A DNA stretch of 64,000 nucleotides from a bacterium (GTDB lineage: Bacteria; Krumholzibacteriota; Krumholzibacteriia; Krumholzibacteriales; Krumholzibacteriaceae), in assembly GCA_020350885.1 (NCBI GenBank), contig CP070727.1, forward strand, positions 344,813 through 408,812, given 5' to 3'. Positions 18,630 to 42,761 of this stretch are shown in pieces; position 1 is the stretch's first letter, and each line of letters begins with the position of its first letter. The translations under genes were made by a program, and so were the position numbers. The notes beneath the pieces were generated by a model that saw only the letters and a program-made list of their open reading frames with translations, was not told where the DNA came from and ran no database searches.

Positions 18630-19481
18630 TTACCTGATATCGATCTCCTCGGATATTTCGAAGCGTTCTGTTTCGGCCGCCTGTCTTCGGATGCGGCACG
18701 CCGGTATCACCGGATCGTGCTCGAAGAAGAGGATCCATCCCTCATCTGCCGCCCGTCCGATCAGCCGTCTCTTCTCCTCCAAGGTACTCAGGGGAAAGTG
18801 ATCGTAGGCCATGATGTAGGGGAGGTTCAGATGTGAGGCGAGGGGCACGAGATCGGCGCAGTAGAGGAGACTCCCTTCGTCTGTCGTGATCAGGACGACC
18901 TGGTGACCCGGTGTGTGACCGTCAGTCGGAATAAGGCTCACACCGGGGAAGATCTCCTCTTCTCCGTCAATCAGGCGCAGCATCCCCGCCTGCTCTATGG
19001 GTACGTAATTATCGGGAAAGAAGCTCGCCCGGTCCTTGGCATTCGGCTCAACCGCCGCCGTCCACTGCCTGCGCTGGATATAGTGTTCGGCACGGGGGAG
19101 CGTCAAATGCAGATCTCCGCTATGATCGCGGTAAGTGAAACCGCCGACATGATCGAAGTGCAGATGAGTGGCAACCGCATCGGTTATGGTATGCGGATCA
19201 ATCCCTTCCCGTCTGAGGGCCTCCCCCAGCCCCTCGGTCTCGATCGAATAGATCCGGATCATCTTATCGTCGAGCTTCGTACCGGATCCGCTGTCTATGA
19301 CGAGCCTGCGGCCGTTCCCCTCGACGAAGAGCACCCGCATCGCCATCGAGATCCTGTTACTCTCATCGGCCGGATTGGTGCGGCTCCAGAGGACCTTTGG
19401 CACCACCCCAAACATCGCCCCCCCATCGAGCCTGAATATACCTGTCTCGATCGCCTTCAGCGTAAAGCCGCCCAACCTCAT
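18630..19481 (-). CDS. MBL-fold metallohydrolase
   Basis: About 283 residues, metallo-beta-lactamase fold. Metal motif HLHFDHVGG (about 107-115), a downstream His in DGHTPGHQ, an Asp in LLYCADL, and a late His in YDHFPL/FEHDP. The family resembles AHL-lactonase/AttM-like and other quinolone- or glyoxalase-type hydrolases, but the substrate cannot be assigned. It overlaps YbjQ by 4 bp and precedes sigma factor 1 by 3 bp, so it is embedded in the double-ECF operon. Confidence 0.85.
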   Translation of the reverse strand: MRLGGFTLKAIETGIFRLDGGAMFGVVPKVLWSRTNPADESNRISMAMRVLFVEGNGRRLVIDSGSGTKLDDKMIRIYSIETEGLGEALRREGIDPHTITDAVATHLHFDHVGGFTYRDHSGDLHLTLPRAEHYIQRRQWTAAVEPNAKDRASFFPDNYVPIEQAGMLRLIDGEEEIFPGVSLIPTDGHTPGHQVVLITTDEGSLLYCADLVPLASHLNLPYIMAYDHFPLSTLEEKRRLIGRAADEGWILFFEHDPVIPACRIRRQAAETERFEISEEIDIR

Positions 19482-23679: not shown

Positions 23680-24441
23680 TCAAAGATCGATGGTCATGCC
23701 GTCACTGGCAACGACCACCGGGCCGTTGTAATGTTTCCGTACGCTTGCGGCCGGGTCGGAGTCGCCGAATCTCGGGTACATATGGACCAGTACCACCCCT
23801 CCGACACCGGCCTTGGATGCCAGGCTCCCTACCCCCCCTGGGGTCAGGTGCCCGGGAACGGCCTGATCGTCGGGAAACGAGCATTCCGTCACCAGGAGAT
23901 CCGCCTCACGGGCGAACTCGACCAGCCGCTCGGTATAGGCGGTATCGCCCGTATACACGAAACTGACACCGCCATGATCCATCCGGTAGGAGAGGGCGGT
24001 CCGCTCGCCGTGATCCGCCCGGACCGCACCGATGCGGCTCTCCCCCTCGATAGTCAGTGCACCCTCATCGATCTCCACCAATCGTAGGTAGTCGCTCTTC
24101 ATGACCAGGGAGCGATAGAGCATGTCGAGTCGTTCCATGAACTCCTCGAGACCGCGCGGCCCGTACAGCACCAGCTGTGCAGACTCGAAGCGGTCCCGGT
24201 CGTTGTTGATGGCAGAGAGCAGGTGGCCGATCCCCAGTGTATGATCCGGATGGTAGTGGGTTATAAAGATCCTCTCGAGCGAATGGAACGAGGTTCCCGC
24301 CTCCTCGAGCGCCTCGAGCACGCACGGACCACAATCGAAGAGGAAGCGTTGCTCTCCCGTTTCTACGAGCAGGGCCGTCGCCCTCCGTTCGAGTGAGGGT
24401 ATGATGGTGCCCGAACCGAGGATCGTGACACGCAGTGGCAT
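23680..24441 (-). CDS. RNase Z-like MBL-fold hydrolase
   Basis: About 253 residues. It starts VTILGSGTIIPS, then THYHPDHTLG (metal motif, about 60-69), YTGDTAYTERL, TECSFPDDQ and HLTPGG with a late HMYPRFGD. This matches the ribonuclease Z/arylsulfatase-like MBL group. The long flexible arm of true tRNase Z is not evident, so a phosphodiesterase or other ElaC-like activity is possible. It overlaps the SAM hydrolase stop by 1 base (TAATG). Confidence 0.85.
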   Translation of the reverse strand: MPLRVTILGSGTIIPSLERRATALLVETGEQRFLFDCGPCVLEALEEAGTSFHSLERIFITHYHPDHTLGIGHLLSAINNDRDRFESAQLVLYGPRGLEEFMERLDMLYRSLVMKSDYLRLVEIDEGALTIEGESRIGAVRADHGERTALSYRMDHGGVSFVYTGDTAYTERLVEFAREADLLVTECSFPDDQAVPGHLTPGGVGSLASKAGVGGVVLVHMYPRFGDSDPAASVRKHYNGPVVVASDGMTIDL

Positions 24442-25295
24442 TACCGCTTATTCCCTGCTTTCGGTTCCCGTGAGATGAAGAATATCTCCAGAGATTTCTT
24501 TTCCTTCAAGCCGAGATGCTGGAATGCGCTCCCCCTGTTGATGGCAATCTCGAGAAACCCCCAACTATTTATGAGCGCCATGAGCTTTCCCCGGTCTCCC
24601 TGCGCATAGTACCGCTTCAATCCCCTGATACTCTTCCCGCCGACACGGATGGTACACTCCTCCCACGGAATGCCGTTGGCGTAGACCGAGGAGAGATACT
24701 CCTCATCGATGTTCGTGATGATATTACCGAAGGTATCGACATAGACGGCCCGGCCGGCCACCTGTCCCTCCCTGTTCACAAACGGTTTCTCCGCCGGCAC
24801 GGTAAGCACCGAGGTGAGCTCTTCCCCCATCTCGGAAGGCGGCACGCCGACCGACAGGTGTGCGGCGATGGGTGCAAAGATATCCCGCCCCAAGAATGTC
24901 CTGCCGCGAAGATCGAGCGTATAGCTGCCGGGGCGCACGTGGTAAACCTTCTTCACCCTTCCCTTCTCGAATATCGATGAGAGGATGCCGTTATCGGGGG
25001 CAACGAAGTAATGCAGCTCGGTCTGGACGATGAGATTCTTCCGCTTACCTCCGACTCCCGGATCAACGACGCACAGGAAGATCGTTCCCTCCGGAAAATA
25101 GGCGAAGCTGTTGCCGAGTATGAAACTGCCCTCACGCACATCCTGGCTCGATACATCATGACTCAGATCGACGATGCGCGCATCCGGATTTATCCCCAGG
25201 ACTACACCCTTCATCACACCTATGTACCAGTTGTGCCAGCTGAAATCCGTGAGAAGAGCGATAATGGCCTGTTTCGATACCTTCCGCTTCGCCAT
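24441..25295 (-). CDS. SAM hydroxide adenosyltransferase (DUF62 SAM hydrolase)
   Basis: Hydrolyses S-adenosylmethionine to adenosine and methionine. About 284 residues. The family catalytic triad appears intact: Asp78 and Arg85 in VVDPGVGGKR, and His146 in FAPIAAHL. The N-terminal motif reads LTDFSWHNWYIGVMKG where most members have TDFG..D, so Gly to Ser and Asp to Asn changes sit near the ribose site. No clear ribosome site precedes the ATG at 25295; a hairpin lies 20-41 bp upstream. Confidence 0.88.
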   Translation of the reverse strand: MAKRKVSKQAIIALLTDFSWHNWYIGVMKGVVLGINPDARIVDLSHDVSSQDVREGSFILGNSFAYFPEGTIFLCVVDPGVGGKRKNLIVQTELHYFVAPDNGILSSIFEKGRVKKVYHVRPGSYTLDLRGRTFLGRDIFAPIAAHLSVGVPPSEMGEELTSVLTVPAEKPFVNREGQVAGRAVYVDTFGNIITNIDEEYLSSVYANGIPWEECTIRVGGKSIRGLKRYYAQGDRGKLMALINSWGFLEIAINRGSAFQHLGLKEKKSLEIFFISREPKAGNKR

Positions 25296-33247: not shown

Positions 33248-33289
33248 CGGTACCGGATATCCACGGACACCGGATCAGATCCGGTACCG
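33248..33289. terminator. Convergent inverted repeat/terminator candidate
   Basis: CGGTACCGGAT (33248-33258) and ATCCGGTACCG (33279-33289) are an 11-bp perfect inverted repeat with a 20-nt loop, between the convergent Nudix and PP-loop genes. It overlaps the PP-loop stop codon. A second nested repeat, ACCGGATC/GATCCGGT, lies at 33269-33285. Confidence 0.5.
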
Positions 33290-34312
33290 GCCGATCTCGT
33301 CGTCCCCCGCAGGTATGACGGTGAGGATCTCTTCGGTTCCGTCCTTTCGGACGACGACCCTGACCTGCGGCTGCCGTTTCGCATCACTGTAGCGGGCGGT
33401 AATAGATGCCGCCAGGACTATATCTTCGCCGGAGGGATCACCCTGAATCAGCGTCGTGGGACCAGGATAATCGATTGTGGTGGCGAGCGGGGAATCGCTC
33501 CAGTAGCGCTCGAGATACATATTCTCTCCCTTGTCCCTTCCGACGACGATCTTCACGTTCCGGTTGATCCTGAGATGCCTTCCGATCGAGAGCAGCACCG
33601 TCTCCTCCCGGGTCACCGACGGGGGCTCCCGGGAACCGACAAGATCCCGGAACCTGCGTGCGTAGTTGTCGTCCGTCAGTGTGCATCCCCCCGCCGGCTG
33701 GGCGTAGTCCGTAATACCAAGCCCGGCGGCAAGCTCGATCTGTCTTCGCCTCGAGCGCCCCTGTATATCGAGAAGCTCCTCGCGCCGCACCCACCCCTCC
33801 CGCTCCGGCAGGGAAGGCTTCAAGAGTTTGGCACACAGGGGACGAACGAGTAAGTCCTTGAGCCCGCTCCTGCGTTCGACCAGCTCCATCGCCTGACGGT
33901 GCTGGGACATCGGCCGCTGCCCGAGCACCTCACCGGTAAAGATAAAGTGCGCCCCTTCACGCTCCATTCGAACCTTGGCCTTCTTCAGCATGAAGATCCT
34001 GCAATCGATGCACGGATTCACATTGGCGCCGTACCCGTGGCGAGGTGCGAGCAGAAGCCCGAGGTATTCCTCGGAGACATCAATAACCTCTACCGGGATG
34101 CCGAGGATTTCCGAGAGTTCCTGTGCCGTTTGTGCCTGCCGCTCTCTTTCCTCATCGCGGGCCAGAGCGAGACGCTGCAGCATGCCCGAACTGAAACCGT
34201 TCAGGAAATGAATACCGAGCATCTCGATACCCTGCCGTTTGAGCACAGCCACGGCAAGGGTGCTGTCGAGCCCCCCGGAAACCAGACCGATTGCCTTGAT
34301 CCGTCCTTCCAT
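33275..34312 (-). CDS. PP-loop ATPase, MnmA/ThiI-like tRNA-thiolation family
   Basis: About 345 residues. The PP-loop SGGLDST lies at about 12-18 of IGLVSGGLDSTLAVAVLKRQ; NPCIDCRIFMLKKAK (about 100-114) is a CxxC placed as in MnmA-like enzymes, and GGCTLTDDNYARRFRDL follows. A C-terminal domain of about 110 residues (IVVGRDKGENMYLERYW) is not MnmA-like. It probably adenylates and thiolates tRNA or another sulfur acceptor; target unknown. The ATG at 34312 is chosen because the family begins here; an extension to 34396 would code across a CCGGATACCGG palindrome. Confidence 0.8.
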   Translation of the reverse strand: MEGRIKAIGLVSGGLDSTLAVAVLKRQGIEMLGIHFLNGFSSGMLQRLALARDEERERQAQTAQELSEILGIPVEVIDVSEEYLGLLLAPRHGYGANVNPCIDCRIFMLKKAKVRMEREGAHFIFTGEVLGQRPMSQHRQAMELVERRSGLKDLLVRPLCAKLLKPSLPEREGWVRREELLDIQGRSRRRQIELAAGLGITDYAQPAGGCTLTDDNYARRFRDLVGSREPPSVTREETVLLSIGRHLRINRNVKIVVGRDKGENMYLERYWSDSPLATTIDYPGPTTLIQGDPSGEDIVLAASITARYSDAKRQPQVRVVVRKDGTEEILTVIPAGDDEIGRYRI

Positions 34313-34447
34313 GACCGTTTGACCCTGTACCGTAATTACGTCTCTCGAACGGGGACCGGATACCGGGACAAAGGGTACACGCAGATCGGTCTTCATGCAA
34401 GTGGTTACCCTTCGACGCTGTAAGTGAAGATGTCGGTACGAAAGTGA

Positions 34448-35353
34448 TTATACCGTTTCATGCCCTCTGTGTCCGAGCGCATAACGCAGCCCCTCGCTCA
34501 CATAGTGTATACAGAGGCATGTGATGCATATCATGAATCCCGGTGCAAACGCCGCCAGGGGGGTCTTCCGGAGAAAGATCTGTGCGTTTTGCAGCATGTT
34601 TCCCCAGGTGGGAAGTGGCGGTTGGACACCGTATCCGAGAAAGCTCAGTGCACTCTCGATGAGCATCGCCTGTGCGAATCCGACCGTGGCCGCCACGATC
34701 ACCGGTGAGAGGGCGTGCGGGAGCATGTGTTTGAAGATGAGTGATACGGCGTTGACACCCATCGATCGTGCGGCCTCGACAAACTCTTCTCCCTTGAGCG
34801 AGAGGAACTCTGCCCTCACCAGCCTCGCCGTTTCCATCCATGAGGTCGCACCGATGATGAGGGGGATTGTCCAGAGCCGTCCGCCGCTGAACGAGGCGGC
34901 AAGAAGGAGAACGAGAAAGACAGGTATCGAAAGAAAGAGATCTACGGCTCCGGAGACGAGATGATCGGCGAAACCGCCGATATACCCCGCAAGGGTGCCG
35001 AGCGTGAGGCCGATCACGGTGGCGATGGCAACCGAAACGAAGGCGACGAGAAGTGTGAACCGGCCACCGAAGATGAGCCTCGTCAAAAGATCCCTGCCGA
35101 GCTCGTCGGTTCCGAGAATGTGCTGGGGCGACGGCCCCGTAAGGATGTGATCGAGATCGATCGTATCCCTTCCGTATGGGGTCACGAGCGGTGCCAGGAG
35201 CGAGACAGCAACGATGAGGAAAATTAGCACGAGTGCAAAGAAGACCGGTTTCGGTACAGTACATCGGGAGAAGAAGTCGATCCTGCGTCTTTGCATCGAC
35301 GGCAGGGATGGATCGATCCCCCATATACGTCCCTGTAATCCTGCCTCGGCCAT
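34448..35353 (-). CDS. Peptide ABC transporter permease (DppC/OppC-like)
   Basis: Inner-membrane permease of the peptide/nickel ABC family, about 301 residues with six predicted helices. The conserved EAA loop reads EFVEAARSMGVNAVSLIFKHMLPHALSPVIV, typical of OppC/DppC, and the N-terminal OppC_N segment is present. The ATG at 35353 follows GGAGG at 9 nt; an ATG at 35374 (7 codons longer) is the alternative. It follows the partner permease by about 22 bp. No ATPase gene is adjacent. Confidence 0.9.
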   Translation of the reverse strand: MAEAGLQGRIWGIDPSLPSMQRRRIDFFSRCTVPKPVFFALVLIFLIVAVSLLAPLVTPYGRDTIDLDHILTGPSPQHILGTDELGRDLLTRLIFGGRFTLLVAFVSVAIATVIGLTLGTLAGYIGGFADHLVSGAVDLFLSIPVFLVLLLAASFSGGRLWTIPLIIGATSWMETARLVRAEFLSLKGEEFVEAARSMGVNAVSLIFKHMLPHALSPVIVAATVGFAQAMLIESALSFLGYGVQPPLPTWGNMLQNAQIFLRKTPLAAFAPGFMICITCLCIHYVSEGLRYALGHRGHETV

Positions 35354-35375
35354 TCCGGTTTGCCTCCGTTTCATC

Positions 35376-36389
35376 TTACACGGGAGCTCCCGCCGCAGTC
35401 TTCCGTGTGCACACCCCCGCCCCCCGCTCGAACCGATGGGGTGAAATTCGGGGATCGATCACCATGCTCAGGACATCCCCGATCGTATTGAAGAGGACGA
35501 TCAGCAGTGAGGCTATCACCACGACTCCGAGTATCCGCGTGTAATCGTGACGCTGCAGCCCTTCGTAGAACATTCTCCCCATCCCCGGCCACGAAAAGAC
35601 CGTCTCGGTTATGACCGCACCGGTAAATATGGTTGGAACCTGCATGACGACGACTGTAAGAACGGGAAGCACGGCATTTCTCAATGCATGTTTGAACACC
35701 ACAATCCCCTCGCCGAGCCCCTTGGCCCGGGCCGTCCTGATGAAATCGCCCCGGAACGCTTCGAGGAGACCCACCCGCATATAGCGGCTCCAAACGGAGA
35801 GATACGCCAGGGAAAGTATTGCCGCCGGAAGAACGAGGTGTCTCAGGTGGCCGATTACGTCCTTCCCCGCCCCGAGCTCACTTCTGCCGCCTGCGGGAAG
35901 CAGGCCGAGCTTCAGGGAAAAGACCGTGATCGCCATCAATCCGAGCCAGAAGACCGGTACGGACATCCCCACGGTGGAAATGATGGAGAAGACATCGTCA
36001 ATCAGTGTTCCCCGCTTGAGTGCGGCCACGGTTCCGATCATCACGCCCAGGAGGACGGCGATGGCAAAGGCGGCCCCCATGAGTTCGAGCGTGGCGGGAA
36101 GCCGCTGTAGGATCATCTCGGAGACCGGCCTCCCGGTTACATAACTCTTCCCGAAATCGAATCGGAGGAAGACCTGGCGGAACCAGTACAGATATTGCAG
36201 TGGCAACGGCTTGTCCAACCCGAAGTTCTCCCTGATCCTGGCGAGATCCGTCTCCGTGACCTTCGGGTTTCCCGAGATGACGCCGACGGGGCCGCCGGGG
36301 GCTAGATGGAGACATGCAAAGGCGGCCACCGAAATGAGAATCACGGTGGGAACCGCTCGTGCGAACCGCCTCACAAGAAAAGCCGTCAT
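35376..36389 (-). CDS. Peptide ABC transporter permease (DppB/OppB-like)
   Basis: About 337 residues, six predicted helices. Family features: N-terminal LVRRFARAVPTVILISVAAF, HLAPGGP, and the EAA loop FIRTARAKGLGEGIVVFKHALRNAVLPV. Forms the transmembrane pore with the OppC-like protein. The gene is 21 bp after a beta-CASP MBL gene, which is a surprising neighbour for a transporter. Confidence 0.92.
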   Translation of the reverse strand: MTAFLVRRFARAVPTVILISVAAFACLHLAPGGPVGVISGNPKVTETDLARIRENFGLDKPLPLQYLYWFRQVFLRFDFGKSYVTGRPVSEMILQRLPATLELMGAAFAIAVLLGVMIGTVAALKRGTLIDDVFSIISTVGMSVPVFWLGLMAITVFSLKLGLLPAGGRSELGAGKDVIGHLRHLVLPAAILSLAYLSVWSRYMRVGLLEAFRGDFIRTARAKGLGEGIVVFKHALRNAVLPVLTVVVMQVPTIFTGAVITETVFSWPGMGRMFYEGLQRHDYTRILGVVVIASLLIVLFNTIGDVLSMVIDPRISPHRFERGAGVCTRKTAAGAPV

Positions 36390-36410: not shown

Positions 36411-37994
36411 TTAGCTGATCCATGCCTGCATGGATATCTCATCACATAAGGCGTACGGGATCGGGGCGCATCCATACACCGTACCGTGGTGCACCGCTGC
36501 ACCTGCCGCCTGATGCGGAACGAGAATAACACGTTCTCCCCGCTTCGGAATCACGACTTCGAGACCGTACTCCAGCCGGATCGCCTCGGCGAGGGCACGG
36601 GCCTGCTCGAGCTCTCCGTGGACGAGAAAGACCTTCTCGGCTCCCTGTATACCCCCGAGCCACTCGAGCAACCCCAGCTGATCTGCATGTCCCGAAAAGG
36701 AATCGATCCGCCGCACTTCGAGCACCGGAGATATCCATTCCCGTTTGAATCTCTTTCCATCCCGGTGCCGTACCATCACGGAGCTCTCACCCGCCGCCAG
36801 CCGTGCCCCGAGGGACAACGGTGCAAGCCAGCCAACGAAACAGACCAGATTCCGCGGGTCCCCGTAGAGCCGCATGAGATGCCTCGGCGAGCTGGCATGT
36901 TCGAGATCTCCGCTCGAGGAGACGAATACGACCGGCTCGTGCCTGCGCGCATGTACCTTGAGCGATGTCTTGCTCCTGACCTCGCGCAGGCCTCCCGAGT
37001 CAAGGATGCTCTCCCCGTAGAACTCCCTCGCCCAGCGAGAGAGCTCATGGGGGAAACGCCGGTAGACACGGCTGATGCTGCGGGCGCTGGGGCTGTCGAC
37101 ATAGACCTCCGTACCGGATGGGATGATTCCCCGTTTCCTATAGAGATCGATCGTCGCGCACACCTCCTGCGTCCTTCCGAGCGCAAACGCCGGTATCAGG
37201 ACATCACCCCCCCGTTCGAGGGCGGCACCGACAGCCTCGGCGAAGCAGCGGTGCCTCTCGCCTGCACCTTCACCCGTGACCGTGCGAATCGTGCCGCCGT
37301 ATGTCGATTCCATGACAACGTACTCACCCCGTTCCGGTGTGTCGAGCGGCGGCAGCAGGAGCGAGCTCCCGGAACCGAGATCCCCCGAGATCACAATGTT
37401 CACCGGACCGTCCGGTGTGGCGATGGCACATTCGACGAATACGGCCCCGAGGAGGTGTCCCGCGTGTTTCAGGGTAAACGAGATCCCCTGAACGGTTACC
37501 GTGGAATCGAATGGTACGGGAGTGCATCCGGCGACCGCTCTGTCGAAGGCCGCACGGGACACCTTCTCACGGGAAAGTCCCCGCTGCATACCGAGCATTA
37601 TGGGTACGAGCTCGGCCGTCGGGGCGGTGCAGTAGATCTCACCATGGAAACCACCGGCGTAAAGCTCCGGGATGAGTCCGCAGTGATCCAGGTGGGCGTG
37701 GGTGAGAACGACGAAGGAGATCGACTCGGGCTCCGGCGGAAGCACCCTCCGCCCCTGTGAGCCGAACACACCGCAATCCACGACGAACCTCGTTTCACCG
37801 GTTTCGACCAGGAGAGACGATCCGCCGACCTCCCGGGCCGCCCCGCAAAACGTAAGGGCGACTTCCCCGGACTCCCGGCCCATCTGCCGCTCCGCGAGCC
37901 ACACGGCGAGAACAGCGAAAACGATAACGGGTATCGTCCATCCGAGACGGCGCACGATACGCTCACGGAACTTCTTTGCGCTCTCATTCTTCAT
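36411..37994 (-). CDS. Membrane-anchored MBL-fold beta-CASP metallohydrolase
   Basis: About 527 residues. One N-terminal helix (about 19-35, WTIPVIVFAVLAVWLAE) follows a basic segment (KKFRERIVRR), so by the positive-inside rule the catalytic part should face the periplasm. The MBL/beta-CASP core is complete: HAHLDH (99-104), HAGH (177-180), SGDLG (203-207), Glu229 in MEST, SGHAD (434-438) and VHGE (458-461). The motif near 360 is SSSGDLEHASSP rather than the usual SGM..GG. Known relatives are RNA nucleases (RNase J, CPSF73). The ATG at 37994 overlaps the binding-protein stop by 11 bp. Confidence 0.85.
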   Translation of the reverse strand: MKNESAKKFRERIVRRLGWTIPVIVFAVLAVWLAERQMGRESGEVALTFCGAAREVGGSSLLVETGETRFVVDCGVFGSQGRRVLPPEPESISFVVLTHAHLDHCGLIPELYAGGFHGEIYCTAPTAELVPIMLGMQRGLSREKVSRAAFDRAVAGCTPVPFDSTVTVQGISFTLKHAGHLLGAVFVECAIATPDGPVNIVISGDLGSGSSLLLPPLDTPERGEYVVMESTYGGTIRTVTGEGAGERHRCFAEAVGAALERGGDVLIPAFALGRTQEVCATIDLYRKRGIIPSGTEVYVDSPSARSISRVYRRFPHELSRWAREFYGESILDSGGLREVRSKTSLKVHARRHEPVVFVSSSGDLEHASSPRHLMRLYGDPRNLVCFVGWLAPLSLGARLAAGESSVMVRHRDGKRFKREWISPVLEVRRIDSFSGHADQLGLLEWLGGIQGAEKVFLVHGELEQARALAEAIRLEYGLEVVIPKRGERVILVPHQAAGAAVHHGTVYGCAPIPYALCDEISMQAWIS

Positions 37995-39687
37995 CCAGCC
38001 ACCATTCGTTCGCATTCCAGCTGTCGCCCGACTGCGTCGGATTGGGTCGGTACCCGTTGAGACGCTGCGGCATCGCATCGAGCTGTGTCACCCAGAGAAG
38101 GGGAATCATCGGTACCTCCGTAGCGAGTATCTCGTCAATGCGCTCGTAGATGGGTTTGCGTTCATCGAACAGCACCAGGCGACTCCCGCGGGCGAGCAAT
38201 TCGGAGAGCTCGTCATGATTGATCCGCGAGAAGTTCTGCCCGACCGGTGGCAGGAAATCCCTTGAATAGCTCCCCTCCTTCGTGGAGGGATCCGGCGGCG
38301 TGAGGATCGCATACAACGCGATATCGAACTTCCCCCGCTTGAGCACCCCGCCCTCGTCGTAACTCGCATACATCACGGTCGGATGAAAATTGCGGATAGT
38401 GAGATCGACGCCAATCTTCCGATACTGCTCCTTGAGTACGAGCTGGGTTCGCTCCCTGTTCAGCATTCCGGCCGTGGTCATGATCGAGAACGTAAGCGGT
38501 TCGCCCTCCCGCTCGCGTAGTCCGTCACCGTCCGTATCGATCCATCCCGCCTCCGTAAGCAGCCTGCGGGCGGCATCGGGATCATACCCATTCATGTGTT
38601 CCCACGTATCCGTATGGTACGGGGAGCTCGGATGCTCGTCGGAAAAAGCCGGTATCCACACATTCTCGTATATCTTCTCTGAGATCTCACGGCGATCGGT
38701 GGCGCGGGCCAGGGCCCGGCGCACTCGCCGGTCCCCGAGGATGTCATCCTCACAGTTCAGATCGAGATGCTCGTTGAAGAGGGCGGGATTCCTGTAAAGC
38801 CTGATACCGGCTACCGATTCGAGTACTGAAAGCAGCTCGTTCGGAGCGTTATCGATTGCCGTGACACCACCCGTTTCGAGCTGCAGGAGCAAAGCGTTTT
38901 CATCCGGCACAAACCGTATCATGATCTCATCAAGGTACGGTCCCTCACCGTAATAATCCTCGTTGGCCCGTACCGTCAGATGTGATCCCGGTACCCACTC
39001 ACCGAACACGAACGGGCCCGACCCGACGGGTTGCCGGTGGAAACCGGCACTCTGGAAGTCGGGACCGAGCTTGTCGGAGAGCAGGTGCTCCGGCAGCACC
39101 GATTCATCGTAGAAGCAGTCGCCGACGAAGTTTGCATAGACCTCACGCAGGTGAAAGACAACCGTGTGATCATCGGGGGTTTCGAGGCGATCGATGACCT
39201 CCCACCCCTGGCGGGTCTCAACATTGATCTCCGGGTGCATCATGAGCTCGTACGTGAACCTGACATCGGCCGAGGTGACCGGCGCACCGTCGTGCCACCG
39301 GGCATCCGGCCGGAGATGGTATGTATAGGTGAGATAATCTCTCGAGATACCACCGTTCTCCACACTCGGCACCTCAGTGATGATATCGCACACGAGCTCC
39401 ATCCGTTCGTTGTGCTTGACGAACTTGCTGAAGATGAAATTGCAAACGTAGACACCGGTGACCATGGTGTTTACAGCCTCATTGAGGATCTCGGGCTCCT
39501 GCTGCATCCCGATGACGAGCCGACCGCCCCGGCGCGGCACGGTCCCGTTCCCCCCGCCGTCCCGGCCCGTCCCGATGCCGACATCCCCCAGAGCGCCGCC
39601 CGAATCCCCACCGGCATCCCCGCTGCAACCAATGACACCCGTGTACATTACCAGCAACAAAATCAGGCATATACGCCTCGGTAGCAT
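37984..39687 (-). CDS. Peptide-binding lipoprotein (OppA/DppA, SBP family 5)
   Basis: Extracellular solute-binding protein family 5, about 567 residues. A lipobox VIGC ends the signal peptide at about residue 21, then a Gly/Asp-rich linker leads into the lobes (GGRLVIGMQQEPEILNEAV). Mid-protein phrases YTYHLRPDARWHDGAPVTSADV and ARATDRREISEKI are typical. GGGAGGATAC precedes the ATG, and an AT-rich stretch lies upstream (39755-39785). It delivers peptides (or another ligand) to the permeases at 34448-36389; the ATPases are not encoded nearby. Confidence 0.92.
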   Translation of the reverse strand: MLPRRICLILLLVMYTGVIGCSGDAGGDSGGALGDVGIGTGRDGGGNGTVPRRGGRLVIGMQQEPEILNEAVNTMVTGVYVCNFIFSKFVKHNERMELVCDIITEVPSVENGGISRDYLTYTYHLRPDARWHDGAPVTSADVRFTYELMMHPEINVETRQGWEVIDRLETPDDHTVVFHLREVYANFVGDCFYDESVLPEHLLSDKLGPDFQSAGFHRQPVGSGPFVFGEWVPGSHLTVRANEDYYGEGPYLDEIMIRFVPDENALLLQLETGGVTAIDNAPNELLSVLESVAGIRLYRNPALFNEHLDLNCEDDILGDRRVRRALARATDRREISEKIYENVWIPAFSDEHPSSPYHTDTWEHMNGYDPDAARRLLTEAGWIDTDGDGLREREGEPLTFSIMTTAGMLNRERTQLVLKEQYRKIGVDLTIRNFHPTVMYASYDEGGVLKRGKFDIALYAILTPPDPSTKEGSYSRDFLPPVGQNFSRINHDELSELLARGSRLVLFDERKPIYERIDEILATEVPMIPLLWVTQLDAMPQRLNGYRPNPTQSGDSWNANEWWLDEE

Positions 39688-39879: not shown

Positions 39880-40428
39880 CTAGCTAACGATACGAACGAA
39901 TTCATCGACCGGGAGACGCTCCGGCCGCCGCCCCTCGGTCTCGGTCTGCTTCTGCGACAGGTTCGGTGTCGGCGAAGCGGCGTGTCTACCGACCATGACG
40001 AGTGTGATGACCTTCATCTCATCCGGAATGGCAAGGATCTTCTTCACAGCTTCCTCGTCGAAGCCGGCAATCGGATGTGCCACGAGGCCGAGCTCGGTTG
40101 CCCGCATTATCATCAACCCGACGGAGAGACCCGTGTCAAAGAGGTAGTACTCCCTCCCGGTAATCTCACAATCATAATCGTGTCTGCTGTACACGGCGAC
40201 GATCAGCGAGGCGTCCCGGCACCATTCGTTTCCCTTCGAAAGGGCATCATGAAGCTCGGCGAGACGATTGCTTCCGAATACGAAGACGTAGCGCCATGGC
40301 TGTTTATTGAAACAGGAAGGGGCGAGGGACGAACACGTTGCGAGATCATGAACCAGATCGGTCGTGATCTCTACGGGCTCGAGCGATCGATAGGCCCTTC
40401 GCCTTTGAATTGCTACATGTACATCCAT
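39880..40428 (-). CDS. Nitroreductase-family (FMN) oxidoreductase
   Basis: About 182 residues, flavin-dependent nitroreductase fold: IQRRRAYRSLEPVEI at the start (phosphate-binding Arg cluster), SCFNKQPWRYVFV, FDTGLSVGLMIMRATELGL, and HPIAGFDEEAVKKIL. Short members reduce nitro compounds, quinones or flavins. The ATG at 40428 follows GGAG; an open frame to 40656 runs into ccsB and is rejected. The gene lies just after the cytochrome c assembly pair. Confidence 0.9.
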   Translation of the reverse strand: MDVHVAIQRRRAYRSLEPVEITTDLVHDLATCSSLAPSCFNKQPWRYVFVFGSNRLAELHDALSKGNEWCRDASLIVAVYSRHDYDCEITGREYYLFDTGLSVGLMIMRATELGLVAHPIAGFDEEAVKKILAIPDEMKVITLVMVGRHAASPTPNLSQKQTETEGRRPERLPVDEFVRIVS

Positions 40429-40454
40429 CTGTACCCGTCTCCTTTCTGCCGGTC

Positions 40455-41264
40455 TTAGATATAGGCGTGAAGTCCCCCGAAGAATAGATTCCCCACGAAC
40501 GAGATCACGAAGATCACAAACCCGACGATGGCACAGACGGCAAGCGCGCGCCCGCGCCACTTCCCGCGTATATCCTGGTGTAGAACCAGTGTATAGAAGA
40601 GCCATATCACCAGTGAGCCGGTCTCCTTTGGATCCCAGCTCCAGAATGATCCCCACGCCGACTGAGCCCAGATCGCACCGGCAAAGAGCGCACCGATCGT
40701 AAAGAGCGGATATCCTATACGGATCGAGCGTGAGATGAACTCCTCGAGAAAATCACGTGACGGGTAGAAGTCGGCCCCATCACCACCCCTATACCGGATC
40801 AGGTATACGATCCCTCCGCCCGCTGCTATGATAAATGCACCTTCGGCCAGGGCGGCCATCACCACGTGTATGTAAAACCAGTAGCTCTGCAAGGCCGGCA
40901 TGAGTTGCTTCGACGCTTCCTTGGGAAGCAGCGATGCTATGACGAGTACGATCAGCAGGATCGGAGTGATGATGACCCCGAACACCATCCGGCGAAACCT
41001 CGCGAGGATAACTACAAAGGCCACAGCGACGAGCCACGACATGGTGAGTGCATACTCGAACATCGTCGAGAAGGGAGGATGCGTGCTGATCCACCATCGT
41101 GCAATAAGGCCTGCGGTATGAAAGGCCAATGCGACACAGAAGAGTACGGTGGCCATGATACCGATACTCCGTCTCTTCAGGGAGACGAAGACGGTGTAGG
41201 CGAGAAACGATACCAGGTAACACCAGAAGCTGGTCCAGAAGAAATCGATATCGGCTGCATGCAT
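40455..41264 (-). CDS. CcsB/CcsA cytochrome c assembly protein
   Basis: About 269 residues, eight or so transmembrane helices. The tryptophan-rich WWD motif WGSFWSWDPKET (about 213-224) binds heme for ligation to apocytochrome c on the outside of the inner membrane. His-containing helices flank it. Partner of ResB, whose gene ends 21 bp upstream; together they form the system II heme-ligation machine. No CcmG-type thioredoxin is adjacent. Confidence 0.93.
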   Translation of the reverse strand: MHAADIDFFWTSFWCYLVSFLAYTVFVSLKRRSIGIMATVLFCVALAFHTAGLIARWWISTHPPFSTMFEYALTMSWLVAVAFVVILARFRRMVFGVIITPILLIVLVIASLLPKEASKQLMPALQSYWFYIHVVMAALAEGAFIIAAGGGIVYLIRYRGGDGADFYPSRDFLEEFISRSIRIGYPLFTIGALFAGAIWAQSAWGSFWSWDPKETGSLVIWLFYTLVLHQDIRGKWRGRALAVCAIVGFVIFVISFVGNLFFGGLHAYI

Positions 41265-41285
41265 TACACATCAACTCCCAACATA

Positions 41286-42761
41286 TCAGTGCAAACGGCT
41301 GCCGGCGATCGTCCCCCGCAGCTCGTCCTGTAATGCTCCCTTCAATCTCCCCAGCTCGCGCTCGAGACCGACTTTCCACCGGTACTCGATTCCCGCTATG
41401 ACGAGGCCTTCCGGACCGACGGCTCCCGAGATCAGGCGGTAGTTGAACAGTAAGAGAACGATCAAGCCTATCGTGGCGATGGCAATACCTCCAAGGAACA
41501 CGGACGATCCGGGATTGGTACCGATCTGGAGCCCCGTGAGGAGGACCGGCTCGATATCAGTGAGCACGAAGCTGCCAGTTTTCTCGAAACGGCTGTTGAA
41601 CCGCCGGTGGTGCAGAAAGAGCCATCCGCGCTCGGGCGCCCCTCCGCTCTGCACCTCGATCTCCAGCGCCGGGTTCGCCATCGTAGCACTCGCCGAATAC
41701 GGCCCCTGTGCCCCCACCCTGAAATCAGGTAGGAACCTCAGGGCGGAAAGCACCGCATCGCCCCCGGGTAGCTGAATCTCGTGCCCCGGCCTGACGGTAA
41801 GCGGTACCGTCCCCAGCCTGCCCTTTGCTGCGAACTCGATCCGGGCCCACCTGAATTCATCCTCATCCACGTAGTAGGAGCTCTGGTGAATGTCGAATTC
41901 CTTATAGTGCAGAGGATGATTGACCTCGATATCCGCGACGAGCACGGTATTACCCTCTTCGTTTATAACAGAAACCCTGGAGATATAGTCCCGTATCTCC
42001 AAACGCCCGGTTGTTATAATCCGGAAATCCTCGATACGAAGCGACTCGGAGCCTTCACCGAGGGGCAGGAGATCACCCGCCCGCCCGTAGAGCACCTCCG
42101 TCCACCCCCAGATACCCCCGATCACACCACCCACTGTGATGATGAGAATGCCGATATGAAAGAGAAAATTCCCCACGAACCGCCACCGTCCCCCCACAGC
42201 CGAGAAGAGGATCCCCCCCTCCCCGTCCCGTGAAGCCACACGGTACCCCTTGCGGGAGAGGACCGTTCTGACCCCCGCAAAGAGTGATTGCATGGTATCA
42301 TCGTCCGCCCGCTCATGGCGCCCGTATTTTTTCCCGTAATGGGTGAGCACATCACGCCCACCGCCCCGTGCTGCTGAGAGATCGCTCCAGGCGAACTCGA
42401 TGCGGGGAAGTTTCTTCGAGAGCGCCTTCGTACCGGCGGGTATTTTGATGCGGAAAGAACGAATGATGAATCGATTCCAGCGGGTTATCAAACAGAGTAG
42501 CAGAACGACAAAGAAGAGGGCAAGAACGGCGGTATACCAGAAGGAGTGGAACGGATCGTAGAGCCCGAAGAGATCAACCAACCACACCGCGGTCTTCCCC
42601 CAGAGCTTCACGTACATATCGCGCCGGTGCTCGAAATCCGCCGGAAAGACCTCGCTGCATATCCATCCGGCCGCGCTCGCGCCAAGCAGGACCGCAATGA
42701 CGGCTACGGCGAACCGGTAGGTTACGAGGTCTTCCCTGATTCTCTGTGCAAGATTCCGCAA
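41286..42761 (-). CDS. resB: ResB-family cytochrome c biogenesis protein
   Basis: About 491 residues. Three N-terminal helices (about 15-35, 67-92 and 190-215) and a long periplasmic region rich in beta structure are as in ResB. A last helix (about 415-440) precedes a charged C-terminus. Motifs: YDPFHSFWYTAVLALFF, VGNFLFHIGILIITVGGVIGG, and DIEVNHPLHYKEFDIHQSSYYV. The start is TTG at 42761, with AAAGG 7 nt upstream. It works with CcsB. A promoter with an operator-like repeat lies upstream (42785-42814). Confidence 0.91.
   Translation of the reverse strand: MRNLAQRIREDLVTYRFAVAVIAVLLGASAAGWICSEVFPADFEHRRDMYVKLWGKTAVWLVDLFGLYDPFHSFWYTAVLALFFVVLLLCLITRWNRFIIRSFRIKIPAGTKALSKKLPRIEFAWSDLSAARGGGRDVLTHYGKKYGRHERADDDTMQSLFAGVRTVLSRKGYRVASRDGEGGILFSAVGGRWRFVGNFLFHIGILIITVGGVIGGIWGWTEVLYGRAGDLLPLGEGSESLRIEDFRIITTGRLEIRDYISRVSVINEEGNTVLVADIEVNHPLHYKEFDIHQSSYYVDEDEFRWARIEFAAKGRLGTVPLTVRPGHEIQLPGGDAVLSALRFLPDFRVGAQGPYSASATMANPALEIEVQSGGAPERGWLFLHHRRFNSRFEKTGSFVLTDIEPVLLTGLQIGTNPGSSVFLGGIAIATIGLIVLLLFNYRLISGAVGPEGLVIAGIEYRWKVGLERELGRLKGALQDELRGTIAGSRLH

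Follow-up and report, generated by a model that had tools for sequence, protein, structure and literature searches.

We describe a gene of Candidatus Krumholzibacteriota (host assigned from named relatives), a phylum known almost solely from metagenomes, that encodes a beta-CASP hydrolase with intact catalytic residues and a conserved N-terminal anchor and that lies in a conserved ABC-transporter operon. Our proposal, which we regard as evenly balanced, is that the protein is an exported, membrane-anchored beta-CASP metallo-phosphodiesterase, most likely of the RNase type, whose product is imported by the co-encoded transporter. The beta-CASP family (CPSF73, Integrator, RNase J, FttA, and Artemis) is known for processing nucleic acids within the cell, and a search of the open-access literature found no exported beta-CASP protein, only ComEC, which has no beta-CASP domain. 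If the proposal is true, an order-wide, outward-facing member in a nutrient-import operon would place the family in a new compartment, perhaps with new chemistry.

The following features belong to the window, that is, the whole stretch of 64,000 nucleotides that was analysed.

37984..39687, minus strand: SBP_bac_5 substrate-binding lipoprotein (SBP) with lipobox VIGC, first gene of the operon, overlapping the hydrolase start by 11 nt
36411..37994, minus strand: beta-CASP hydrolase gene, 527 aa, MBL/beta-CASP/RMMBL, assigned from its domains, its homologs, its structural model, and the fold matches of that model
37878..37994, minus strand: basic stretch and predicted signal-anchor helix, about residues 1-39, with hydrophobicity and charge bias but not sequence conserved in orthologs
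36885..36920, minus strand: altered motif SSSGDLEHASSP, residues 359-370, in place of canonical SxSGM..GGR, from ortholog and canonical alignments
35376..36389, minus strand: OppB-type permease, separated by 21 nt from the hydrolase gene upstream of it
34448..35374, minus strand: OppC-type permease, after OppB
33275..34396, minus strand: HUP (ThiI/MnmA-like) and NFACT-R_2 protein, conserved downstream neighbour

The hydrolase and its N-terminal anchor

The hydrolase matches the Pfam families Lactamase_B (5.6e-12), Beta-Casp (PF10996, 1.1e-18), and RMMBL (PF07521, 3.8e-16). An earlier note on this DNA had claimed that the MBL/beta-CASP metal and catalytic motifs are all kept, and this is borne out: MBL motifs 1 (D73), 2 (H99/H101/D103/H104), 3 (H180), and 4 (D205) and beta-CASP motifs A (E229), B (H436), and C (H459), named by homology to MTH1203 (PMC3095777), are all present, their residues are invariant in 20 orthologs, and the metal and catalytic positions are conserved to at least 90% in 88 canonical homologs. 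The closest solved proteins by sequence are the aCPSF1-type 2ycb (7e-51) and TTHA0252 2dkf (1.5e-48), and FttA, Cas14, INTS11, and CPSF73 are further solved relatives. An AlphaFold2 model built from 20 orthologs (mean pLDDT 84, pTM 0.81) shows the predicted fold, with a single continuous helix (residues 4-39), a globular part from residue 45 to about 491, and a low-confidence tail (496-527); its top PDB matches are the RNases FttA and TTHA0252. Among viral structural relatives, one putative phage exonuclease has the whole fold, which says nothing on location.

Translation starts at the ATG at 37994. A longer open reading frame call (38078) would put the start within the upstream gene, and the start was set at the short basic N-terminus because orthologs place it there. 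The basic segment followed by one transmembrane helix that the earlier note had described is readily recognized: helix LGWTIPVIVFAVLAVWLA has a Kyte-Doolittle value of 1.97 over 19 residues, carries a charge of +5 before it and -1 after it, and corresponds to the helix of the model. Each of the 22 orthologs whose N-terminus is visible has a short basic stretch there together with a hydrophobic segment, whereas of 88 canonical beta-CASP homologs, drawn from many phyla, none has a credible N-terminal helix; these cytosolic-type homologs begin right at the first MBL strand, and the moderately hydrophobic stretch of one of them (L051) lies upstream of its probable start. Judged by this sequence comparison, the hydrophobic segment is not a chance feature.

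Net charge is higher before the helix than after it in 19 of the 20 orthologs analysed, equal in one (L042), and lower in none, with a mean difference of +3.6, so that no ortholog has a charge bias favouring a cytoplasmic C-terminus. Two proteins of the same genome serve as controls: the cytosolic beta-CASP paralog has no helix, and in RNase Y, the catalytic part of which is cytosolic, the charge pattern around the helix is reversed relative to the hydrolase. Outward topology is supported because helix and charge bias are conserved despite sequence drift and because these two controls differ; the predicted arrangement is N-in/C-out, and the hydrolase would very probably lie outside the cytoplasmic membrane. 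The extracytoplasmic location that the earlier note had derived from the positive-inside rule is thereby strengthened, while still being a prediction. A simple pattern search found no signal peptidase I-like site in the window protein, so its anchor is likely retained; the same kind of pattern gave AxA-like sites in several orthologs, and these orthologs might be cleaved. Omp85 proteins are encoded in the genome as well, which leads us to expect an outer membrane and a periplasm.

Operon context and distribution

The earlier note, supported on these points, had overlooked one feature of context, namely that the hydrolase gene sits in an ABC-transporter operon, as the second cistron of an oligopeptide-type arrangement of lipoprotein SBP, hydrolase, OppB, and OppC. 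The order SBP, beta-CASP, OppB, OppC, and HUP/NFACT-R-type gene is kept wherever contigs are readable, in both families of the order. This conservation extends past the operon limits, and synteny by itself therefore overstates functional linkage; a functional link of the HUP/NFACT-R_2 protein to the hydrolase is doubtful. Two outgroup families (f7 and f8) have the orthologous operon (identities of 49-53% for OppB and 50-55% for SBP) with no gene between SBP and OppB, which are separated by about 20-200 bp. Since the transporter operon exists there without the beta-CASP gene, the gene was either inserted at this place or lost, and it was kept throughout the order.

The nearest solved relative of the SBP is the oligopeptide-binding AppA. 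Known ligands of SBP_bac_5 proteins are chiefly peptides, nickel, and sugars or opines, and relatives include the agrocinopine-binding AccA, the ligand of which is a sugar phosphodiester. The genome's two oligo_HPY ATPases are sited elsewhere, beside another OppBC pair. Genome-wide, the OppBC pairs number three and the SBP_bac_5 genes four, against only one oligo_HPY ATPase pair (G000:C1 1186369-1190127, L169; 413943-416210, L171). One ATPase pair for three OppBC pairs suggests shared ATPases, and the importer presumably uses OppDF-type ATPases encoded elsewhere. A promoter and terminator scan gave sites no more numerous than in shuffles, and a search for a defence link gave no PADLOC match.

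Several further observations concern the surroundings. The genes immediately upstream of that for the SBP (39880-42761, minus strand) encode ResB, CcsB-type (cytochrome c system II), and nitroreductase-like proteins; ResB and CcsB occur at this place as a conserved pair throughout the order. On the other side (33275-34396, minus strand), the ThiI/MnmA-like HUP domain is fused to an NFACT-R_2 RNA-binding domain, and this gene follows OppC in the order and in outgroup f7 and, by gene order, also in genomes G040 and G033. Elsewhere in the window, two more MBL-fold proteins are encoded, both without a beta-CASP domain (18630-19481 and 23680-24441, minus strand), and a SAM hydroxide adenosyltransferase (SAM_HAT) gene (24441-25295, minus strand) adjoins a patatin-like phospholipase gene; similar-looking genes occur downstream of Opp operons at three outgroup loci (L173, L174, and L176).

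When 80 genomes of the phylum were searched with a profile, strong matches (best match 420-824 bits) came from 24 of the 25 that belong to the window's order; the one without such a match is 61% complete. Orthologs are 49-53% identical over the full alignment. The remaining genomes of the phylum gave only weaker matches, of at most 291 bits, and the six examined closely are canonical. The canonical paralog of the same genome, near 2.76 Mb, is 29% identical to the hydrolase. A maximum-likelihood tree, the root of which is arbitrary, unites the anchored proteins in a single clade (support 100/100, stem length 1.15). In the same arbitrarily rooted tree this clade lies apart from most canonical Krumholzibacteriota copies, and a recent duplication of the cytosolic paralog is not supported.

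The limited survey outside the phylum included two sets of 396 genomes and plasmid matches, so exported relatives may exist elsewhere. In the search for members outside the order, a scan of genome contigs gave no match. With profile A1 at E <= 1e-92, no match was obtained in the 396 genomes of the phylum to which a Flavobacteriales locus belongs, and the two obtained in the 396 genomes of the phylum to which an Acidobacteria locus belongs were rejected, both being of the canonical SGM type without an anchor. Roseovarius plasmid matches with apparent N-terminal coverage were also rejected, as the extension enters an overlapping DUF5676 gene and the annotated MBL gene starts later. On the conjugative plasmid of Roseovarius sp. 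AK1035 (L184, 1238-2982), a canonical-type MBL-fold gene overlaps a small DUF5676 membrane-protein gene, is followed by a thymidine phosphorylase gene, and is perhaps a separate membrane-linked beta-CASP module.

Altered residues, substrate, and alternative readings

The anchored group reads SSSGDLxHANSPRHL where canonical homologs read SxSGM..GGRxxHHL. The Met of SGM, a Gly, and the Asp at position 136, each present in 100% of the 88 canonical homologs, are replaced in the anchored group by D or N, by Ala, and by Met, respectively; canonical Arg235 and His237 are also mostly replaced, the latter by Arg. Group-specific invariants include R337, E338, H348, R350, H352, P370, R371, C385, W420, and P423, and none of the replaced or group-specific residues is a metal ligand. 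The hydrolase likewise departs from the canonical YSH1/TTHA0252 signature (SxSGM..GGRxxHHL block, STYGNRxH). The suggestion of the earlier note that the altered motif may mark a new substrate group survives with a correction: the alteration is real, conserved in the group, and co-varies with other invariants, but it does not lie in a metal motif. As the motif is altered lineage-wide together with other canonical invariants, a shifted substrate fits, and the residue pattern is consistent with a retained reaction at a changed substrate site.

Histidine in motif C denotes the RNA type and valine the DNA type (PMC3095777). H459 is of the RNA type and invariant among orthologs, which makes RNase activity probable, and the predicted chemistry of the hydrolase is likely that of a phosphodiesterase. 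RNase fold matches and a more positive beta-CASP domain (charge +5.2 in the anchored group vs -0.4 in canonical homologs) also favour our main reading. However, the substrate may be something other than ordinary RNA, since the replacements affect several canonical invariants close to the substrate side, and we give ordinary nucleic acid an even chance. In the proposed mechanism, the signal-anchor helix (N-in/C-out) would keep the two-metal active site periplasmic and near the inner membrane, where the hydrolase would cut a phosphodiester-bearing compound, RNA or oligonucleotides by family precedent. The lipoprotein SBP and the OppBC permease, with OppDF-type ATPases from elsewhere in the genome, would then import a product. 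Functional coupling of hydrolase and transporter is fairly likely.

A variant of this proposal keeps the periplasmic, anchored phosphodiesterase and its Opp-type importer and has them act on something other than ordinary nucleic acid, for example on small phosphodiesters that the importer handles, nucleotide-peptide conjugates among them. We judge it the less likely of the two: replacement of canonical invariants by group-specific ones, the presence of AccA among the SBP_bac_5 relatives, and the embedding of the gene in an importer operon speak for it, but the motif-C His and every catalytic residue are retained, the beta-CASP domain is more positive, as for polyanion binding, and there is no direct sign of such a substrate. 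If it is true, the beta-CASP family would gain its first enzyme with a nutritional or signalling role outside the cytoplasm.

Two other explanations keep the enzyme inside the cell. The group has invariant cysteines (C74, C122, and C385), and the core of the orthologs holds 4-10 Cys, which is unusual for a periplasmic protein unless the cysteines are paired. This Cys-rich core would suit a membrane-tethered cytosolic RNase (N-out/C-in), for which RNase Y, with a single N-terminal helix tethering a cytosolic RNase, is a precedent and with which the cytosolic location of the rest of the beta-CASP family agrees. Such an arrangement is nevertheless unlikely, given the charge bias opposite to that of the same-genome RNase Y in 19 of 20 proteins, the RNase Y already present in the genome, and the operon shared with an exported SBP. 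An ordinary cytosolic beta-CASP enzyme, with the start codon misassigned or the hydrophobic residues incidental, is highly improbable: the frame is indeed open upstream of the chosen start, but the anchor is common to 22 orthologs despite its drifting sequence, the lineage stands apart as a supported clade, and canonical relatives lack any such extension before the first MBL strand. A start-codon artefact was rejected on the evidence of the ortholog N-termini.

Comparison with known systems

The ComEC nuclease domain is an MBL-fold nuclease outside the cytoplasmic membrane (PMC12455585); unlike the hydrolase, it has no beta-CASP domain and is located on a DNA-uptake channel. TTHA0252-type bacterial RNases (YSH1/CPSF73-like) share the MBL/beta-CASP/RMMBL core and all metal motifs, with about 32% identity over the fold, but this canonical group lacks the N-terminal helix present in 22 of 22 proteins of the hydrolase group, has SGM..GGR where the hydrolase has SGD..HANSPR, and has no gene in an ABC operon at the loci examined. 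Archaeal aCPSF1/FttA gives the best sequence and fold matches and shares the motif-C His, although it has N-terminal KH domains where the hydrolase has its anchor; against profile TIGR03675, the hydrolase scores 251.4 bits, below the curated cut-off of 580.2, and matches from profile position 170. Cas14 of type VII CRISPR-Cas also has the MBL/beta-CASP core, but the score against its profile NF045584 is 228.5 bits (cut-off 800), and the hydrolase operon has no CRISPR context. Finally, RNase Y, the catalytic fold of which is unrelated to beta-CASP, is likewise an RNase with one N-terminal membrane helix, but the charges flanking that helix are opposite to those of the hydrolase.
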